Assembly: GCA_023251725.1 (NCBI GenBank)
Contig: JAHEYG010000001.1
Location: 26,739 to 90,738, forward strand
Direction of reading: 5' to 3'
Origin: Sphingobacteriaceae bacterium
GTDB taxonomy: Bacteria; Bacteroidota; Bacteroidia; B-17B0; Aurantibacillaceae
DNA length: 64,000 bases
The notes under the pieces were generated by a model that saw nothing but the letters and a program-made list of their open reading frames with translations, was not told where the DNA came from and made no database searches. Below, piece after piece: positions 18,723 through 26,742 of this stretch. The first letter of the stretch is position 1. Every line of letters begins with the position of its first letter. A program made the translations under genes and the position numbers.

Positions 18723-19790
18723 TTATTTCTTCTCACACACCTGAAGCGTGTGACTGATTCCTATTTGATTAGTTTCTTCTAAAATTTTAAATCCGGCTTT
18801 ATCAATTAATTTATTAAACACCGCCGAATCGTACATCTGGCTGTTTCCATTGGCAACATTGGTAAAATACAAAGAAGTCATTTGCAAACTAAAGGCGCCG
18901 GTTTTAAATCGCTGCCGGTCCCAAAAAGTTTCCATAATGTAAATTTTGCCACCGGGTTCTAATGCTTCATGGCAACGTTTTAAAATACTCACAATTTCTT
19001 CCTCTCCAAAACAATCTAAAAACTGACTCATCCAAATAGCATCGGCACCTTTCGGAAATTTTTGTGAATCATCTAAAATATTAATCTCATAATAATTTAC
19101 TCGTTTCTCAAATCCCGACTCTTTAATATTTTGTTTAGCCAAATTTAATTGTCCGGGCAAATCTAAAATAGTGACTTTAACTTCCTCATTAAAATGCATA
19201 CATTTCAAGGTAAACTTTCCGGTATTCCCACCTATATCTAAAATATGTTTTGGCTTATTTTTGAATAAAATTGGCAATGCTTGCGGAAAAGAACCATCGC
19301 TGTAAAAATGATCAAATGCAAACCAGCTTTTTTGCGCCTGCGCCGGTAAATGCGATAAAGCTTCATACACTGTTTTCCATCCTCCAAAAACTTCGAGTCC
19401 GGTTGGTTTTTCTTTTTTAATGCTGTCTTTTAACGAAAACATTCCTTCGTAACAAACATCCTGAGTAAAATCCATATTTACTCTTGTCATTGAATCGTTT
19501 AAAATAAAATTTCCGGTTTTAGTAATGGTATATCGATTTTCTTTTTTAATCAGTAATCCAATTCCCAAAGCTGCTTCAATCAAAACCCTTGTTCCATAAT
19601 TAGGCAAATTTGTTTTTTCTAAAATTTCTTCAATGGTTAATCCGTTGGTTTTACTTTCTTCAACTGCATCTAAAATTCCTAAATCGCGTAAGGCCAATGA
19701 AGCCTGAAAAACTATTGGAGCAAAAGCAATCCATTGAGCCAAATCAATAGCTTCCATTGCAGTTTTATTGTCTTTATTAAAAAAATCCAT
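18723..19790 (-). CDS. SAM-dependent O-methyltransferase (plant OMT-like dimerisation plus methyltransferase domains)
   Basis: HILDIGGNTGKFTLKC SAM motif, winged-helix N-terminus; adjacent to the ammonia-lyase cluster. Confidence 0.8.
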   Translation of the reverse strand: MDFFNKDNKTAMEAIDLAQWIAFAPIVFQASLALRDLGILDAVEESKTNGLTIEEILEKTNLPNYGTRVLIEAALGIGLLIKKENRYTITKTGNFILNDSMTRVNMDFTQDVCYEGMFSLKDSIKKEKPTGLEVFGGWKTVYEALSHLPAQAQKSWFAFDHFYSDGSFPQALPILFKNKPKHILDIGGNTGKFTLKCMHFNEEVKVTILDLPGQLNLAKQNIKESGFEKRVNYYEINILDDSQKFPKGADAIWMSQFLDCFGEEEIVSILKRCHEALEPGGKIYIMETFWDRQRFKTGAFSLQMTSLYFTNVANGNSQMYDSAVFNKLIDKAGFKILEETNQIGISHTLQVCEKK

Positions 19791-19941
19791 CCTAAAACGT
19801 TAACCTGCCCAGCGTTGCATCTGCTTTCAAACGGCCGGCAGGGAGGCAAATATACGGGCATTTAATTATATTCATAAATGTTTTTTATTTTTAAATTCTC
19901 ACTATCAGCAATTATAAAATTGTTTGTAATATTGTACCCTT

Positions 19942-20028
19942 ACAAATAGCCATAGATTTTAATAAAAATAAGAAAAAAAGACTATGGCGTATTCCATGTG
20001 GTAATAAAAAACAAATTATTTACACATG
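19942..20028 (+). ncRNA. Candidate structured leader motif, copy A
   Basis: AATA-GCCATAG / CTATGGC-G-TATT stem, then CCATGTGGTAATAAAAAACAAATTATTTACACATG. Confidence 0.45.
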
Positions 20029-20110
20029 AAATAGCCATATACCTTTGTGACAAACAGAAAATGAATATGGCGTATTCCATGTGGCAATAAAAAACAATTA
20101 AATACACATG
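20023..20110 (+). ncRNA. Candidate structured leader motif, copy B, ending on the start codon of the ammonia-lyase
   Basis: AATA-GCCATAT / ATATGGC-G-TATT stem with compensatory change relative to copy A, then CCATGTGGCAATAAAAAACAATTAAATACACATG, where ATG is the CDS start. Confidence 0.5.
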
Positions 20111-21655
20111 AAAACAATGGTAAAAATTGGAGATAATAAAATTTCGGCTGACGACTTTTACAAGGTTCTCATCAATAACGGGCAATTAAATATTGATGAT
20201 GATGCCATTAAAAAAGTGTATCGCAGTTTTTATTTCTTAAAAGAATTTACGCGCGAAAAATTAATTTACGGTATTAATACGGGTTTTGGCCCTATGGCGC
20301 AATACCGAATTAATCACGATGACCAAATTAAATTACAATACAATTTAATTCGTTCGCATTGTTCGGGCGCCGGAAACCCAATTCCTGAAATTGATTGTAA
20401 GGCGGTAATGCTTGCGCGCTTAAATACTTTGTTGCAGGGTTATGCCGGCATTCATCCCGATACATTAATTTTAATAAAAGACCTCATCAATAAAAATATT
20501 TCGCCTGTAATTTATGAGCATGGCGGTTTGGGTGCGAGTGGCGATTTAGTTCAGCTGGCACATTTGGCGCTGTGTTTAATTGGCGAAGGTGAAGTTTGGT
20601 ACGGTGGGAAAATTTGTGATGCTAAAGAAGTTTTTAAAAAAGAAAACTTAAAGCCAATGGACATTCACATTCGCGAAGGTTTAGCTTTAATGAATGGTAC
20701 TTCCGCCATGAGCGGCATTGGCGTGCTCAATGTAATTTATGCCGAAAATTTAATGAACTGGTCGCTGATGGCTTCGGCACTAATTATGGAAATTGTTGAA
20801 AGTTTCGACGATCATTACTCAACTCCGCTTAACGAAGTAAAACATCATTACGGACAAAACGCGGTATCAAAAGCCTTGCAAAAAGTTTTGGCCGATAGTA
20901 AATTAGTGAAGAGCCGCGAAGAACATCATTACAATCAAAAAGTAGAGGCCGATGTTTTGGTAGAAAAAATGCAGGAATATTATTCCATTCGTTGCGTGCC
21001 GCAAATTGCCGGTCCGATTGTTGACACCATTATTTACGCCAAAGAAGTTTTAATTAATGAAATTAATTCGGCTAACGATAATCCGATTGTTGATTGGGAA
21101 AGAAAAAATGTTTATCACGGCGGCAATTTTCATGGCGATTACGTAGCGCTCGAAATGGATAAATTAAAAATTGCGATTACTAAATTATGTATGTTATCCG
21201 AAAGGCAATTAAATTTTTTACTCAATAATAAATTAAATAATATTTTACCGCCTTTTGTAAATCACGGCACGCTGGGTTTAAATTTAGGAATGCAGGGCGT
21301 GCAATTTACCGCCACTTCTACCACGGCCGAAAATCAAATGCTTTCTAACCCCATGTACGTGCACAGCATTCCCAGCAATAACGATAATCAGGATATTGTT
21401 AGTATGGGAAGCAATGCAGCTTTAATTTGTAAAAAAGTTATTCTAAATTCTTACGAAGTTTTGGCCATTGAATGGATGACTATTTTACAAGCCGTAGATT
21501 ATTTAAAAATTGAGGATAAATTATCTTTAAAATCAAAAGAAATATACATTAATTTGCGTAAAGTCTTTCCGTGTTTTACCGAAGACAATATTCGTTACAA
21601 AGAAATAAAAGCAGTAAGAGATTATATTTTTAATAACCATATAGAAATATTATAG
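20108..21655 (+). CDS. Aromatic amino acid ammonia-lyase, probably tyrosine ammonia-lyase of flexirubin type
   Basis: MIO motif GGLGASGDLVQLAHL; YGINTGFGPMAQYRI and QYNLIRSHCSGAG resemble the remembered Flavobacterium TAL; MQGVQFTATSTTAENQM. Confidence 0.88.
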   Translation: MKTMVKIGDNKISADDFYKVLINNGQLNIDDDAIKKVYRSFYFLKEFTREKLIYGINTGFGPMAQYRINHDDQIKLQYNLIRSHCSGAGNPIPEIDCKAVMLARLNTLLQGYAGIHPDTLILIKDLINKNISPVIYEHGGLGASGDLVQLAHLALCLIGEGEVWYGGKICDAKEVFKKENLKPMDIHIREGLALMNGTSAMSGIGVLNVIYAENLMNWSLMASALIMEIVESFDDHYSTPLNEVKHHYGQNAVSKALQKVLADSKLVKSREEHHYNQKVEADVLVEKMQEYYSIRCVPQIAGPIVDTIIYAKEVLINEINSANDNPIVDWERKNVYHGGNFHGDYVALEMDKLKIAITKLCMLSERQLNFLLNNKLNNILPPFVNHGTLGLNLGMQGVQFTATSTTAENQMLSNPMYVHSIPSNNDNQDIVSMGSNAALICKKVILNSYEVLAIEWMTILQAVDYLKIEDKLSLKSKEIYINLRKVFPCFTEDNIRYKEIKAVRDYIFNNHIEIL

Positions 21656-21681
21656 ATTAAAGATTTTAAAAAGAGACTTAA

Positions 21682-21726
21682 GGGATTGAAGGGACTTGAG
21701 AGATTGAAGGGACTTGAGAGATTGAA
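21682..21726. repeat. Tandem 18-bp repeat GATTGAAGGGACTTGAGA (about 2.5 copies)
   Basis: Direct reading: units at 21684-21701 and 21702-21719, plus partial copies. Confidence 0.85.
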
Positions 21727-21732
21727 AATTGC

Positions 21733-21750
21733 TCCGAAGGAGTGCCTTCG
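21733..21750. repeat. Hairpin CCGAAGG-AGTG-CCTTCGG between the TAL and FabG-like genes
   Basis: Perfect 7-bp stem with 4-nt loop; not followed by a U-tract. Confidence 0.65.
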
Positions 21751-21779
21751 GAATAAATTGTAAATTAAAGATTATAGTA

Positions 21780-22508
21780 ATGGAATACGCATTAGTTACC
21801 GGAGGCTCAAGAGGAATAGGAAAAGCCATTTGCATAAAATTAGCTGCTATGGGATACAACGTTATTATTAATTATACTGCTAATGATGAGGAAGCAAAAA
21901 AAACACAAGTGGCTGTTATTGAAAAAGGCGTGGAAGGCATTTTAATGAAATTCGATGTGAGTAAAATGGATGCAGTTGATTCTTCATTGGGAAAATGGAT
22001 GGAAGAAAATAAAGACAAAACCATTACTGTTTTAATAAACAATGCCGGTATTGCACGCGATAACATTATGGTGCTAATGAATCCGGAAGATTGGCACAAA
22101 GTAATGGATATTGCTGTGGACGGATTTTTTTATGTTTCGCGTCACGTTGTAAAAGACATGTTGGTGAAACGTAAAGGAAGAGTGGTTAATGTGGTTTCCT
22201 TATCGGGATTAAAAGGTTTGCCCGGACAAACAAATTATTCTGCCTCGAAAGGAGCGGTTATTGCTGCAACAAAAGCTTTGGCGCAGGAAGTAGGAAAGCG
22301 AGGCATAACAGTTAACGCAGTAGCACCCGGATTTATAAAAACCGACATGACCGCCAATTTACCCGAAGCGCAAATAAAAGCAATGATACCGATGAATCGT
22401 TTTGGAGAAGCAGAAGAAGTAGCCAGCGTTGTTGGATTTTTAGTGAGCAAAGATGCTTCTTATGTAACAGGACAAGTTATTTCAGTTAATGGAGGATTAT
22501 ACAGTTAG
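21780..22508 (+). CDS. fabG: 3-oxoacyl-ACP reductase (SDR)
   Basis: TGGSRGIGKAI, NNAGIARD, SLSGLKG...YSASK; start set at 21780 (MEYALVTGG) rather than the ORF start 21729. Confidence 0.87.
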   Translation: MEYALVTGGSRGIGKAICIKLAAMGYNVIINYTANDEEAKKTQVAVIEKGVEGILMKFDVSKMDAVDSSLGKWMEENKDKTITVLINNAGIARDNIMVLMNPEDWHKVMDIAVDGFFYVSRHVVKDMLVKRKGRVVNVVSLSGLKGLPGQTNYSASKGAVIAATKALAQEVGKRGITVNAVAPGFIKTDMTANLPEAQIKAMIPMNRFGEAEEVASVVGFLVSKDASYVTGQVISVNGGLYS

Positions 22509-22605
22509 TGAGGTGATGAAGTGTGAAGTGTGAGTTTGTTATTACTAAAAAAATCAACAATTTTACGTCACAAAATCATCAACTCAGTAAATCATAATTA
22601 ATAAA

Positions 22606-23826
22606 ATGAACAGAGTAGTAATAACAGGAATCGGAATTTGGTCGTGCTTGGGAAAAAGTTTAGACGAAGTAAAAAATTCTTTATTCGAAGGAAAATCAGG
22701 AATTATTTTAGATCAAAAAAGAAAAGATTTGGGATACCGCTCAGGATTAACCGGGATGGTTGACCGGCCTCAACTTAAAGGTCTCATCGATCGTCGACAA
22801 CGCGTTGGCATGGGCGAGCCGGCCGAATTTGCTTACATGGCCACTCTTGAAGCACTCAAGAATGCCAATATGGAAATGGATTTTCTTGAAAAAAATGAGG
22901 TTGGAATTATTTATGGTAACGATAGTGTGGCCAAACCAACAATAGATACAATTGACACCATGCGTTTAAAAAAAGATACCACTTTAATTGGTTCTGGCGC
23001 CATTTTTCAAACTATGAATTGCACGGTTACCATGAATCTGTCTACCATTTTTAAATTAAAAGGAATCAATTTTACTTTAAGCGCCGCCTGCGCAAGCGGT
23101 TCTCATTCTATTGGAATGGCATATTTAATGATAAAATGGGGGCTTCAAAATCATGTTATTTGTGGTGGAGCTCAAGAAGTAAGCGAATATACTTTTGGAG
23201 CTTTTGATGGTTTAAGTGCATTTTCTGTTCGCGAAAACGAACCCTCAAAAGCCTCGCGACCATTTGATAAAGATCGCGACGGACTTGTTCCCAGCGGAGG
23301 TGGCGCCACTGTTATTCTTGAAAGTTTAGATTCGGCTTTAAAGCGAGGCGCCAATATTTTAGCTGAAGTTGTAGGTTACGGGTTTTCTTCCAATGGAGAA
23401 CATATTTCAAACTCAAATGTAGATGGGCAAATCCGCTCGCTTTCAATGGCCATGGAAGATGCAAAATTACTGGCGAAAGATATTGATTACATTAACGCCC
23501 ATGCCACCTCAACCCCGGGCGGCGATAAAGTAGAAGCACAGGCCCTTCATCAACTTTTTGGAAGTTCGAAAACCCCGATAAGCTCTACTAAATCAATGAC
23601 CGGTCACGAATGTTGGATGGCAGGAGCCAGCGAAATTGTTTACTCGATGCTTATGATGCAAAACGATTTTATTGCGCCAAATATCAATTTCGAAAATCCC
23701 GACGAGGACTCGGCAAAACTAAATATCATTGCTAATACCCGCCAACAACCTGTAAAAACGTTTTTATCTAACAGTTTTGGCTTTGGAGGCACAAATTCTA
23801 CATTAATAATTAAGAAATATTTTTAA
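22606..23826 (+). CDS. Beta-ketoacyl-ACP synthase (FabF/FabB-like KAS)
   Basis: Cys-His-His triad: AACASGSHS, NAHATSTPGGD, TKSMTGHE; FGFGGTNS. Confidence 0.9.
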   Translation: MNRVVITGIGIWSCLGKSLDEVKNSLFEGKSGIILDQKRKDLGYRSGLTGMVDRPQLKGLIDRRQRVGMGEPAEFAYMATLEALKNANMEMDFLEKNEVGIIYGNDSVAKPTIDTIDTMRLKKDTTLIGSGAIFQTMNCTVTMNLSTIFKLKGINFTLSAACASGSHSIGMAYLMIKWGLQNHVICGGAQEVSEYTFGAFDGLSAFSVRENEPSKASRPFDKDRDGLVPSGGGATVILESLDSALKRGANILAEVVGYGFSSNGEHISNSNVDGQIRSLSMAMEDAKLLAKDIDYINAHATSTPGGDKVEAQALHQLFGSSKTPISSTKSMTGHECWMAGASEIVYSMLMMQNDFIAPNINFENPDEDSAKLNIIANTRQQPVKTFLSNSFGFGGTNSTLIIKKYF

Positions 23827-23847
23827 ATTTGTACCCGATTTAGAAAT

Positions 23848-24108
23848 ATGACCAAAGAAGAGATAATAGAAAAAAGCACTGCTTTTTTTGTTGATGAGTT
23901 TGAGGTAGAGAGTTCAAAAATTCAGTTAGATGCTAATTTGCGCGAAACTCTCGACTTGGATAGTCTTGATTACGTGGATCTTGTTGTGGTAATAGAAAGC
24001 AATTTTGGATTTAAGGTAAAAGGTGAAGATTTTTTAACCATTCACACTTTCAACGATTTTTACACTTACGTGTACAATAAAATTCAGGAAAAATCGCAGG
24101 TCGCTTAA
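23848..24108 (+). CDS. Acyl carrier protein
   Basis: LDLDSLDYVDLVV phosphopantetheine site; 86 aa. Confidence 0.9.
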   Translation: MTKEEIIEKSTAFFVDEFEVESSKIQLDANLRETLDLDSLDYVDLVVVIESNFGFKVKGEDFLTIHTFNDFYTYVYNKIQEKSQVA

Positions 24109-24138
24109 TTTATCCATCCGAATATAAGGAAGGATAAC

Positions 24139-25038
24139 ATGAAAAATAAAACTCAATGGGAAGGACAATCTAAAGGCCGCATTTTAGGCTATCGCATTTT
24201 TGTTTTTATTCTCAATACATTCGGACTCTCTCCTGCGTATTTTATTTTAAGACTTGTTTCTTTTTATTATTTCCTTTTCAGCAAACCTAATAAACACATT
24301 CGCCAATATTTTATTAAAGGCCACGGTTATTCAAACACAAAAGCTTTTTTTGCCGTTTATAAAAACAATTTTATTTTCGGTCAAACTATTTTAGATAAAG
24401 TGGCAACTATGGCCGGTGCCAAAACTAATTTTAAAATTAACCGTGTTAACGGCGAGGTACTCGATAAAATTGCGGCTATTGGTAAAGGTGGTATTTTAGT
24501 GAGCGCGCACATTGGTAATTGGGAAATTGCCGGTCAGGGTTTAAACCGACTCAATACTAATTTTAATGTTCTTATGTACGAAAACGAACGTGCCAACATT
24601 AAAGATTATATGAATGAAGTTTTGAAAAAGAAAAAAATAAATGTAATTGCTATTAGCGACGAAACTAAAAGCCATATTATTGAATTGCATAATGCATTTA
24701 CTAAAAACGAATTGGTTGTGATGCATGGCGACCGTTACCGGGAAGGCGCCAAAACTTTAACGGCTAATTTTTTAGGAAGGCCGGCTAAATTTCCGGCAGG
24801 TCCGTTTATTATGGCAGCAAAATTTGGTGTGCCGCTTTGTTTTGTTTTTGCCAATAAACAAAATTCAAAAACCTATTTATTTTCAAGTACCGAACCTATT
24901 GTTGTGAATAAGGTTAGAGGCGAAAAAGAAGTAGATGCAGTTTGTATGGAATTATTGAAAAAATACATTACCGAAGTAGAAACCAGGGTAAAAGCTTATC
25001 CTCACCAGTGGTTTAATTATTACGACTTTTGGGCTTAA
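24139..25038 (+). CDS. LpxL/HtrB-like lysophospholipid acyltransferase
   Basis: HIGNWE (HX4E) motif, GDRYREGAKTLTANFLGRPAKFPAGP. Confidence 0.85.
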   Translation: MKNKTQWEGQSKGRILGYRIFVFILNTFGLSPAYFILRLVSFYYFLFSKPNKHIRQYFIKGHGYSNTKAFFAVYKNNFIFGQTILDKVATMAGAKTNFKINRVNGEVLDKIAAIGKGGILVSAHIGNWEIAGQGLNRLNTNFNVLMYENERANIKDYMNEVLKKKKINVIAISDETKSHIIELHNAFTKNELVVMHGDRYREGAKTLTANFLGRPAKFPAGPFIMAAKFGVPLCFVFANKQNSKTYLFSSTEPIVVNKVRGEKEVDAVCMELLKKYITEVETRVKAYPHQWFNYYDFWA

Positions 25039-25111: not shown

Positions 25112-25200
25112 CATGAAATAGCCCTCTTTGAAAAAAGCTATAAATTAGGATAAAGGGGCTATTCCATCTGACATTAAAAAAATAAATTATCTACCATATG
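25112..25200 (+). ncRNA. Candidate structured leader motif, copy C, ending on the pntA start codon
   Basis: ACATGAAATAGCCC...GGGCTATT stem, then CCATCTGACATTAAAAAAATAAATTATCTACCATATG. Confidence 0.45.
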
Positions 25201-26742
25201 AAAGTTGGAATCCCATCAGAAATATCTCCAAACGAACTAAGAGTTGCAGCAACTCCTAAAACTGTTAAGCGTTTGCAAAAACAGGGCTTTGAAGTTCAAA
25301 TTCAAAAAGGTGCCGGAGCAAAAGCAAATTTTTCGGATAAAGATTTTGAAGATGCAGGTGCGAAAATTGTAAATTCTGCTGCAGATGTTTATGGCAGCTC
25401 AGATATCGTTCTTAAAGTTAAGGAACCAAGTGTAGATGAAGTTGTAATGATGAAAGAAGGTTTAGTAATGTTGAGCTACTTGTGGCCTGCACAAAATCAA
25501 GACTTACTTAAAAAATTAGCCGATAAAAAAGTAAATGCAATTGCAATGGATGCGATTCCTCGTATTTCCAGAGCACAAAAAATGGATGTTTTGTCGTCGA
25601 TGGCAAACATCGCAGGTTACAGATCTGTTATTGAAGGTTCATTTTATTTTGGAAGATTTTTAAACGGACAAATTACGGCTGCCGGAAAAGTTGAACCTGC
25701 AAAAGTTTTAGTAATCGGCGCAGGTGTTGCGGGTTTAGCCGCAATTGGCGCCGCTAATTCGTTAGGTGCAATTGTAAGAGCATTTGATACACGTAAAGAA
25801 GTTGCAGAACAAATTGAATCAATGGGTGCACAATTTCTTACAGTAGAAATAAATGAAGATGGCGCAACTTCTTCAGGTTACTCAAAAGAAATGAGTAAAG
25901 AATTTATTGAAGCGGAAATGAAATTGTTTTTAGAGCAAGCGAAAGAGTGTGACATCGTAATTACCACTGCACAAATTCCCGGAAGAGAAGCCCCGAAATT
26001 GTGGTTAGATTATCATGTTGCAGCAATGAAACCAGGTTCTGTTATTGTGGATCTCGCGGCATCAACAGGCGGTAACTGTCCATTAACAAAAAACGGAGAA
26101 GTATATACAACCTCTAATGGCGTGACCATGGTTGGTAAATTAAATCAATTACCAAATCAGGCATCACAACTTTATGGAAATAACTTATGTCATTTATTAG
26201 ATGACATGGGTAAAGCAGAGAAATGGAAAATTGATATGGAAGATGCTGTTGTATCAAGAGCAATGGTAACTTACAATGGAAAAATAAATTGGCCTCCTGC
26301 GCCTCTTCCGGTTAGCCCTACTGCAGGTGGTGCTAAAAAAGTGGTTCCTCCAACCGCAGAAGAAACAAAAAAATCAGAAGAAGAAATTGCAAATAAAAAA
26401 GCAGTAACAACATGGATTAGCATTTCAATTATTGGGGCTTTGCTTTTATTAGTTGGTGCATTTGCACCTTCTGCTTTTATTCAGCACTTCACGGTATTTG
26501 TATTAGCTATTTTTGTTGGATGGCAAGTTATCAGTAATGTATCTCACGCTTTACATACTCCATTAATGGCTGTTACCAATGCCATCAGCGGTATCATTGT
26601 TATTGGAGGTTTGTTACAAACTAAAAATGATATTGGAAATGTGATGACCATTCTTGCTGCTGTAGCAATTTTGATTGCTAGTATTAATATTGTAGGTGGA
26701 TTTGTAGTTACACACCGTATGTTGAAAATGTTTAAAAAATAA
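25198..26742 (+). CDS. pntA: NAD(P) transhydrogenase subunit alpha
   Basis: [49 protein letters not shown]-terminal TM segments. Confidence 0.94.

Follow-up and report, generated by a model that had tools for sequence, protein, structure and literature searches.

Insertion sequences (IS) of the IS110/IS1111 group use a bridge RNA or seekRNA, the latter 70-100 nucleotides (nt) long, and in IS1111-type elements the right-end non-coding region is the position of this RNA (PMC11208160, PMC11187229). Here we describe a family of short repeats, ~82-95 nt long (typically ~85) and encoding no protein, that came to light as two abutting copies, A and B, upstream of the tyrosine ammonia-lyase (TAL) gene in a 64,000-nt stretch of contig JAHEYG010000001.1 of a Sphingobacteriaceae bacterium (the window, in what we call the host genome). 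Comparison with relatives makes it very probable that these repeats are a mobile element that enters at start codons. The explanation we favour, as a likely one, is a non-autonomous mini-element of the IS110/IS1111 type with an internal guide.

Empty sites and start codons

Copies A (19944-20028) and B (20029-20110) each run AAATAGCC...CACATG; these and all features below lie on the + strand. The sequence-only reading, which drew attention to them, had described two adjacent ~85-nt copies, the second ending on the TAL start codon, and took them for a TAL-specific cis-regulatory RNA recalling tandem riboswitches. The arrangement is as described, and the third copy that it named, C, was found at 25116-25200, before pntA. 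The hairpin pattern AATAGCCATAN{10,40}TATGGC has 2 matches in the window and none in 100 window shuffles, and the folding z-scores against shuffled sequence are -5.2 for copy A and -3.7 for copy B. The host genome has two further copies. That at L002 precedes purD and ends on its start codon; that at L003 is degenerate and lies ~150 nt in front of an exonuclease gene.

In relatives, orthologues without the element serve as empty sites. Filled and empty sites were compared for 11 genes, and precise empty sites were found for OsmC, RidA, FeoA, GcvT, purD, pntA, thyA, SOD, rhodanese, SbtA, and RfbA. The element (AAATAGCC...CANATG) lies exactly between the start ATG and codon 2, and its 3' end restores the ATG. 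At OsmC the filled site reads ggtatctttaaaccATG, then the element AAATGATTGGG...GCATATG, then AAAATTACTATTAAAAGA, compared with ggtatctttaaagcATGAAAGTTATTATAAAAAGA at the empty site. In filled copies the stretch 5' of the first ATG corresponds to the native leader, and there is no target duplication beyond the short shared core ATG(AA). It is these precise empty sites that lead us to speak of insertion. Copy C (AAATAGCCC...CATATG) is likewise a precise insertion, following the ATG at 25113-25115, with pntA (transhydrogenase alpha subunit, 25198-26742) starting on the ATG of the copy and empty sites at L153 and L154.

TAL orthologues begin at ATGGTAAAG, which corresponds in the window to ATGGTAAAA at 20117. 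The paired elements are flanked on the left by TACCCTTAC (19935-19943, a promoter -7-like box together with the insertion flank; orthologues have TACTTTAC where the window has ATCTTAC) and on the right by AAAACAATGGTAAAA, which puts the insertion 6 nt before the ancestral ATG. Since the orthologues start at the equivalent of 20117 and the elements sit between these flanks, the ATG at 20108-20110, within the right end CACATG of copy B (20105-20110), is on this comparison an element-donated start codon that lengthens TAL (20108-21655) by three residues, MKT.

A repeated DNA operator or promoter would be a very different account of the same sequence. The left arm of copy B does overlap a Bacteroidota -7-like box, TACCTTTG, at 20040-20047, from which transcription could start inside the element. 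The box, however, is not kept elsewhere (it is TAGATTTT in copy A and TACTTTAA at purD), and empty sites have native promoter-like boxes upstream, so that we give this account hardly any credence. The SOD insertion is located at the junction with the upstream gene; a promoter at the insertion site is therefore unnecessary.

In high-copy genomes, copies within a genome are much alike, with a median identity of 0.90 in genome G036 and 0.82 in G041 versus 0.66 between genomes. RidA was struck in two genera by elements sharing just 64% identity. In tandem arrays the copies are joined head to tail, the CANATG of each serving as left flank to the one after it, as with the right end of copy A (20023-20028). 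Among 82 copies from named genomes, 63 end on the start of an open reading frame (ORF), and of the remaining 19 some six or seven continue into a further copy or an IS110; the left flank is ATG in 72 of 92 copies. By a crude count, the background motif YATGAA occurs 56 times at ORF starts and 197 times in other non-coding DNA (~22% at starts), the second number being inflated by ORFs cut at locus ends. The enrichment at start codons is real in direction and uncertain in size, and selection against harmful insertions could contribute to it.

A covariance model built from copies A and B and the purD copy, with the P1 helix only (see below), has hits in 45 of 60 relatives at E<=1, a good many of them between 1e-5 and 1e-13, with 5e-13 the best outside the host genome. 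A pattern for the right half gives 32 matches in G036, 26 in G041, and 37 in G250, the most in any genome, whereas reversing the pattern gives 0-1. Within Bacteroidota the family ranges widely but patchily: 26 of 297 sampled genomes, from several families, match at E<=1e-3 under strict filters. A pattern scan of ~85,000 genomes found at least 116 loci, and among the matches listed all 80 loci are from Bacteroidota. The genes downstream of the copies are unrelated and share no common pathway. Searches of the open-access literature turned up no account of such elements targeting start codons.

Several observations stand beside these. A viral contig (L415, IMGVR_UViG_3300027265_000045) has a complete element at the start codon of an amidase/endolysin-like gene. 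Dihydroorotase-like and aminopeptidase P-like genes carry elements in different genera (L334/L343 and L352/L373), either by chance or as preferred targets. In the window, 18723-25038 is a flexirubin-type pigment cluster (FlxA, the TAL; FlxB; a FlxJ-like methyltransferase; KAS; ACP; and an acyltransferase), and element copies occur both at its TAL gene and at pntA, the next gene after the cluster.

The internal strand and the two helices

In copy A the first helix, P1, occupies 19945-19993: 19945-19955 pairs with 19982-19988 and 19990-19993, leaving G 19989 bulged. The second, P2, pairs an internal CATNTG with the terminal CANATG, which at 20023-20028 forms its 3' arm. Here the sequence-only reading was perceptive. 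Both the compensatory stem change between the two copies (GCCATAG/CTATGGC versus GCCATAT/ATATGGC) and the CATGTG/CACATG complementarity with the start-codon segment are present, and the RNA-like structure that it proposed appears as a conserved two-helix fold with strong covariation. Across 75 aligned copies, 92.8% of cells in P1 and P2 are paired versus 83.2% after shuffling, 14 of 17 pairs show changes on both sides (shuffled, 6.8), and 43 further pair types occur versus 24 in shuffles; the alignment was fitted to P1, not P2, and relatedness inflates the covariation counts. P2 also has support that needs no alignment, in the combinations CATATG/CATATG, CATGTG/CACATG, CATCTG/CAGATG, and CATTTG/CAAATG, and the N position is complementary in 111 of 120 copies.

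The two helices share one internal strand. This strand, TATTCCATNTG, is complementary to the joined ends of the element, CANATG|AAATA: a continuous 5'-TATT-C-CATNTG-3' pairs with the left end at the base of P1 and with the right end in P2. It lies at 19990-20000 in copy A and 20073-20083 in copy B (both TATT-C-CATGTG), the former complementing the join CACATG|AAATA at every position but the one facing the element's first base, and at 25160-25170 in copy C (TATT-C-CATCTG, with 5/6 pairs to CATATG). That first base faces a mismatch in 86 of 87 copies. When guides and ends were swapped among copies in 500 rounds, the mean match of the guide to the last six and first five bases fell from 9.2 of 11 to 8.2 (maximum, 8.4). 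The relation also survives in subfamilies whose left ends differ, AAATG going with CATT and AAACA with TGTT. The strand also resembles the target. At the left junction it matches ATG (0.87-0.92), and at the right junction it matches the AA that follows the first base (0.71 and 0.84); this fit to ATG|.AA would account for the choice of ATG with AA behind it. Such a pattern is the one expected of a guide for both donor and target, which would work as RNA or as single-stranded DNA. No covariation was found between the guide base N and the base that precedes the target ATG.

Two covarying helices, and a near-perfect CATNTG/CANATG complementarity spanning the start codon, are also what a cis-regulatory RNA would have: a riboswitch, thermosensor, or protein-bound leader in which P2 hides the start codon until a signal opens it, the copies forming a regulon. 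The excess of copies ending on ORF starts over the crude YATGAA background fits as well. The covariation of P2 is nevertheless no proof that an RNA hides the start codon, because guide-end complementarity is also a DNA-level reading, and P2 is a single short helix closing a loop of 22-27 nt. The peptide of the mini-ORF is not conserved (mostly MK; 24 amino acids in G250). Unrelated genes, orthologues without the element, precise empty sites, amplification within genomes, and copies away from genes all speak against regulation, which we consider unlikely as the explanation of the family. No Rfam family matches the repeat at gathering thresholds, nor does any of 20 element-bearing loci, and lax thresholds gave chance-level matches only, in line with the earlier failure to place the repeat in a known riboswitch class. 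Homologues with covariation at orthologous leaders had been anticipated; covarying homologues exist, mostly not at orthologous leaders, and they make up a dispersed repeat family, the outcome that the sequence-only reading had itself set against regulation. Its structural insight was right and the riboswitch is not supported: on the sequence comparisons, the feature before TAL consists of a dispersed mobile element present twice in tandem. Incidental regulation, or co-option for regulation at a later stage, is possible.

The ATG-AAA-TAG mini-ORF between copies A and B, opened by the ATG of copy A, is present as had been noted. With ATGAAA on both flanks, and with a stop codon and hairpin immediately behind the first ATG-AAA, it calls to mind translational bypass of the sort found in phage T4 gene 60 and mitochondrial byps, the ribosome taking off at ATG-AAA before the TAG and landing on the second ATG-AAA. 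The landing site has its own ATG, however, which makes bypass unnecessary; the left ATG is missing in 20 of 92 copies; and in G250 that stop is absent, the first frame being an ORF of 24 codons. Bypass is thus extremely improbable. The G250 subfamily (e.g., L337 and L400) is distinct in this respect, the frame from its upstream ATG being MKSSMTKIVTHWDDYKPCEIPSDL rather than MK-stop.

IS110-family neighbours and a proposed mobilisation

Clustering of the neighbouring ORFs identified an IS110-family transposase, with the domains PF01548 (DEDD) and PF02371 (Transposase_20), adjoining the element in three genomes (L085, L197, and L400); the abutting pairs are in G041, G461/SJ452, and G250. The left end of the IS starts directly after a CANATG and bears the internal motif of the mini-elements of the same genome (ACACAGGGGGATGATTAT in G250; ACCAACCG..ATGAATAT in SJ452). 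Aligned to the elements of its own genome, the G250 left end scores 25.5 versus 7.9+-1.7; in G041/G461/SJ452 the support is moderate (z 4.5-4.8 for the G041 type), with the best scores in the same genome or genus. The right end is ...CAGATG followed by AAA, falling at L197 on the pheT start, and the right-end non-coding region has two conserved stretches bearing ATGAAA. In two genomes (L197:4378-5652 and L400:1169-2491) the transposase gene is divided into two frames that overlap, both times at the A-rich GGKKK site, which suggests programmed frameshifting.

At the level of sequence, these comparisons establish precise insertion, mobility, covarying complementarity, and ends in common and adjacency with IS110, and they support a mini-element mobilised by an IS110 recombinase. 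The likely enzyme would be an IS110-family recombinase acting in trans, probably on a circular intermediate. The single internal strand TATT-C-CATNTG, which would act as an RNA guide, could hold both ends (AAAT... and ...CANATG) and the joined ends of a circle or tandem. The start codon would be the recombination core: the target ATG stays on the left and the element ATG goes to the right with no further duplication. Entering directly after the start codon and ending in its own ATG, the element would leave the gene with a start and an 85-nt leader gained.

The adjacency could also mean that an independent element of the MITE (miniature inverted-repeat transposable element) or REP (repetitive extragenic palindrome) type is moved by another enzyme and that IS110 merely lands on it, much as IS1111 uses QMITE2/REP of Coxiella as a landing site (PMC5896051). 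The IS110 copies here do sit immediately after the CANATG end of an element, and most element-rich genomes are without that IS. The left end of the IS, however, resembles the elements of its own genome over ~45 nt, beyond the join, and the right end agrees too; Y1 transposases are absent from G036, and none is flanked by an element. We hold this account to be doubtful. A mobiliser of the Y1/RAYT (REP-associated tyrosine transposase) kind was considered and rejected, there being no Y1 gene in G036 and the sole nearby one (L330) sitting by a different repeat. That RAYT-like transposase has its own CCCCGACAGGGGTT-type repeats and stands beside an unrelated element copy.

Several findings weigh against the favoured mini-element. 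The adjoining IS110 was seen in three genomes only, and at L085 its left end finds no match among the elements of that genome. The right-end non-coding region belongs to the IS itself, and inspection by eye did not reveal the guide strand of the mini-element there. IS110-family recombinases are present in G250, G041, and G461, and no relative was found at E<=1e-25 in the host genome, G036 (32 copies), or G242, assemblies of metagenome-assembled genomes (MAGs) being incomplete. MAG assemblies often break at multi-copy IS; G242 is assembled in five contigs. Within several low-copy genomes the copies are no more alike than copies from different genomes, about one copy in five lacks a recognisable start codon at its site, and the TAL insertion itself departs from the ATG rule, having TAC as its left flank.

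IS110 relatives were also sought more widely, and those in 395 genomes of the class, viral contigs, and plasmids were few or distant; IS110 in other genomes (L410-L412) had no ends in common with the elements; and no autonomous version, sought via unpaired right halves, appeared in the loci examined.

A bolder form of the favoured explanation is a tentative one: the element may be a mobile guide complete in itself, 85 nt of DNA transcribed into a minimal single-strand bridge RNA that is programmed against the start codon, and it may borrow any compatible IS110 recombinase and spread through the translation starts of Bacteroidota genes and at least one viral contig while rewriting 5' leaders. 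If the favoured explanation is right, RNA-guided insertion would here be naturally programmed to hit start codons, and its guide-target code would be no longer than ATG.AA. Many Bacteroidota genes would bear a parasite-donated start codon and leader, and annotated starts and 5' leaders there would be element-made. The family would also be a natural record of compensatory changes in guides and ends, useful for understanding IS110 recombinases. On this view, covariation beside start codons can stem from guide-end complementarity instead of regulatory RNA.

Comparison with described systems

The element shares with tandem riboswitches and Rfam leaders a structured 5' leader over the start codon, in tandem at TAL, and differs from them in matching no Rfam family, serving no shared pathway, and being mobile. 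Like the REP/RAYT (Y1 HUH) repeats (PMC3733652), it has a bulged hairpin and is dispersed and sometimes tandem; unlike them, it is not associated with a Y1 transposase, has ATG at its end, and sits at gene starts. MITEs such as QMITE1/2 of Coxiella (PMC5896051) are similarly short, non-coding, multi-copy, dispersed, and presumably mobilised in trans. In the broad sense the element is one of them, being short, multi-copy, and dispersed, with empty sites and no transposase gene; in the strict sense it is not, as its ends AAAT.../...CANATG are not inverted repeats and nothing beyond ATG(AA) is duplicated. It also differs from MITEs in regenerating a start codon and being concentrated exactly there, in its tandem head-to-tail arrays, and in being much shorter.

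With respect to IS110/IS1111, the mini-element is unusual in having no transposase, in one continuous strand over the join, a putative guide, rather than separate loops, and in a very short target, ATG.AA, at start codons. Its likenesses to that group are the ends in common with the adjoining IS110-family IS, insertion without target duplication beyond a shared core, an internal segment that by its complementarity would address both donor and target, and a length that is about that of a seekRNA.
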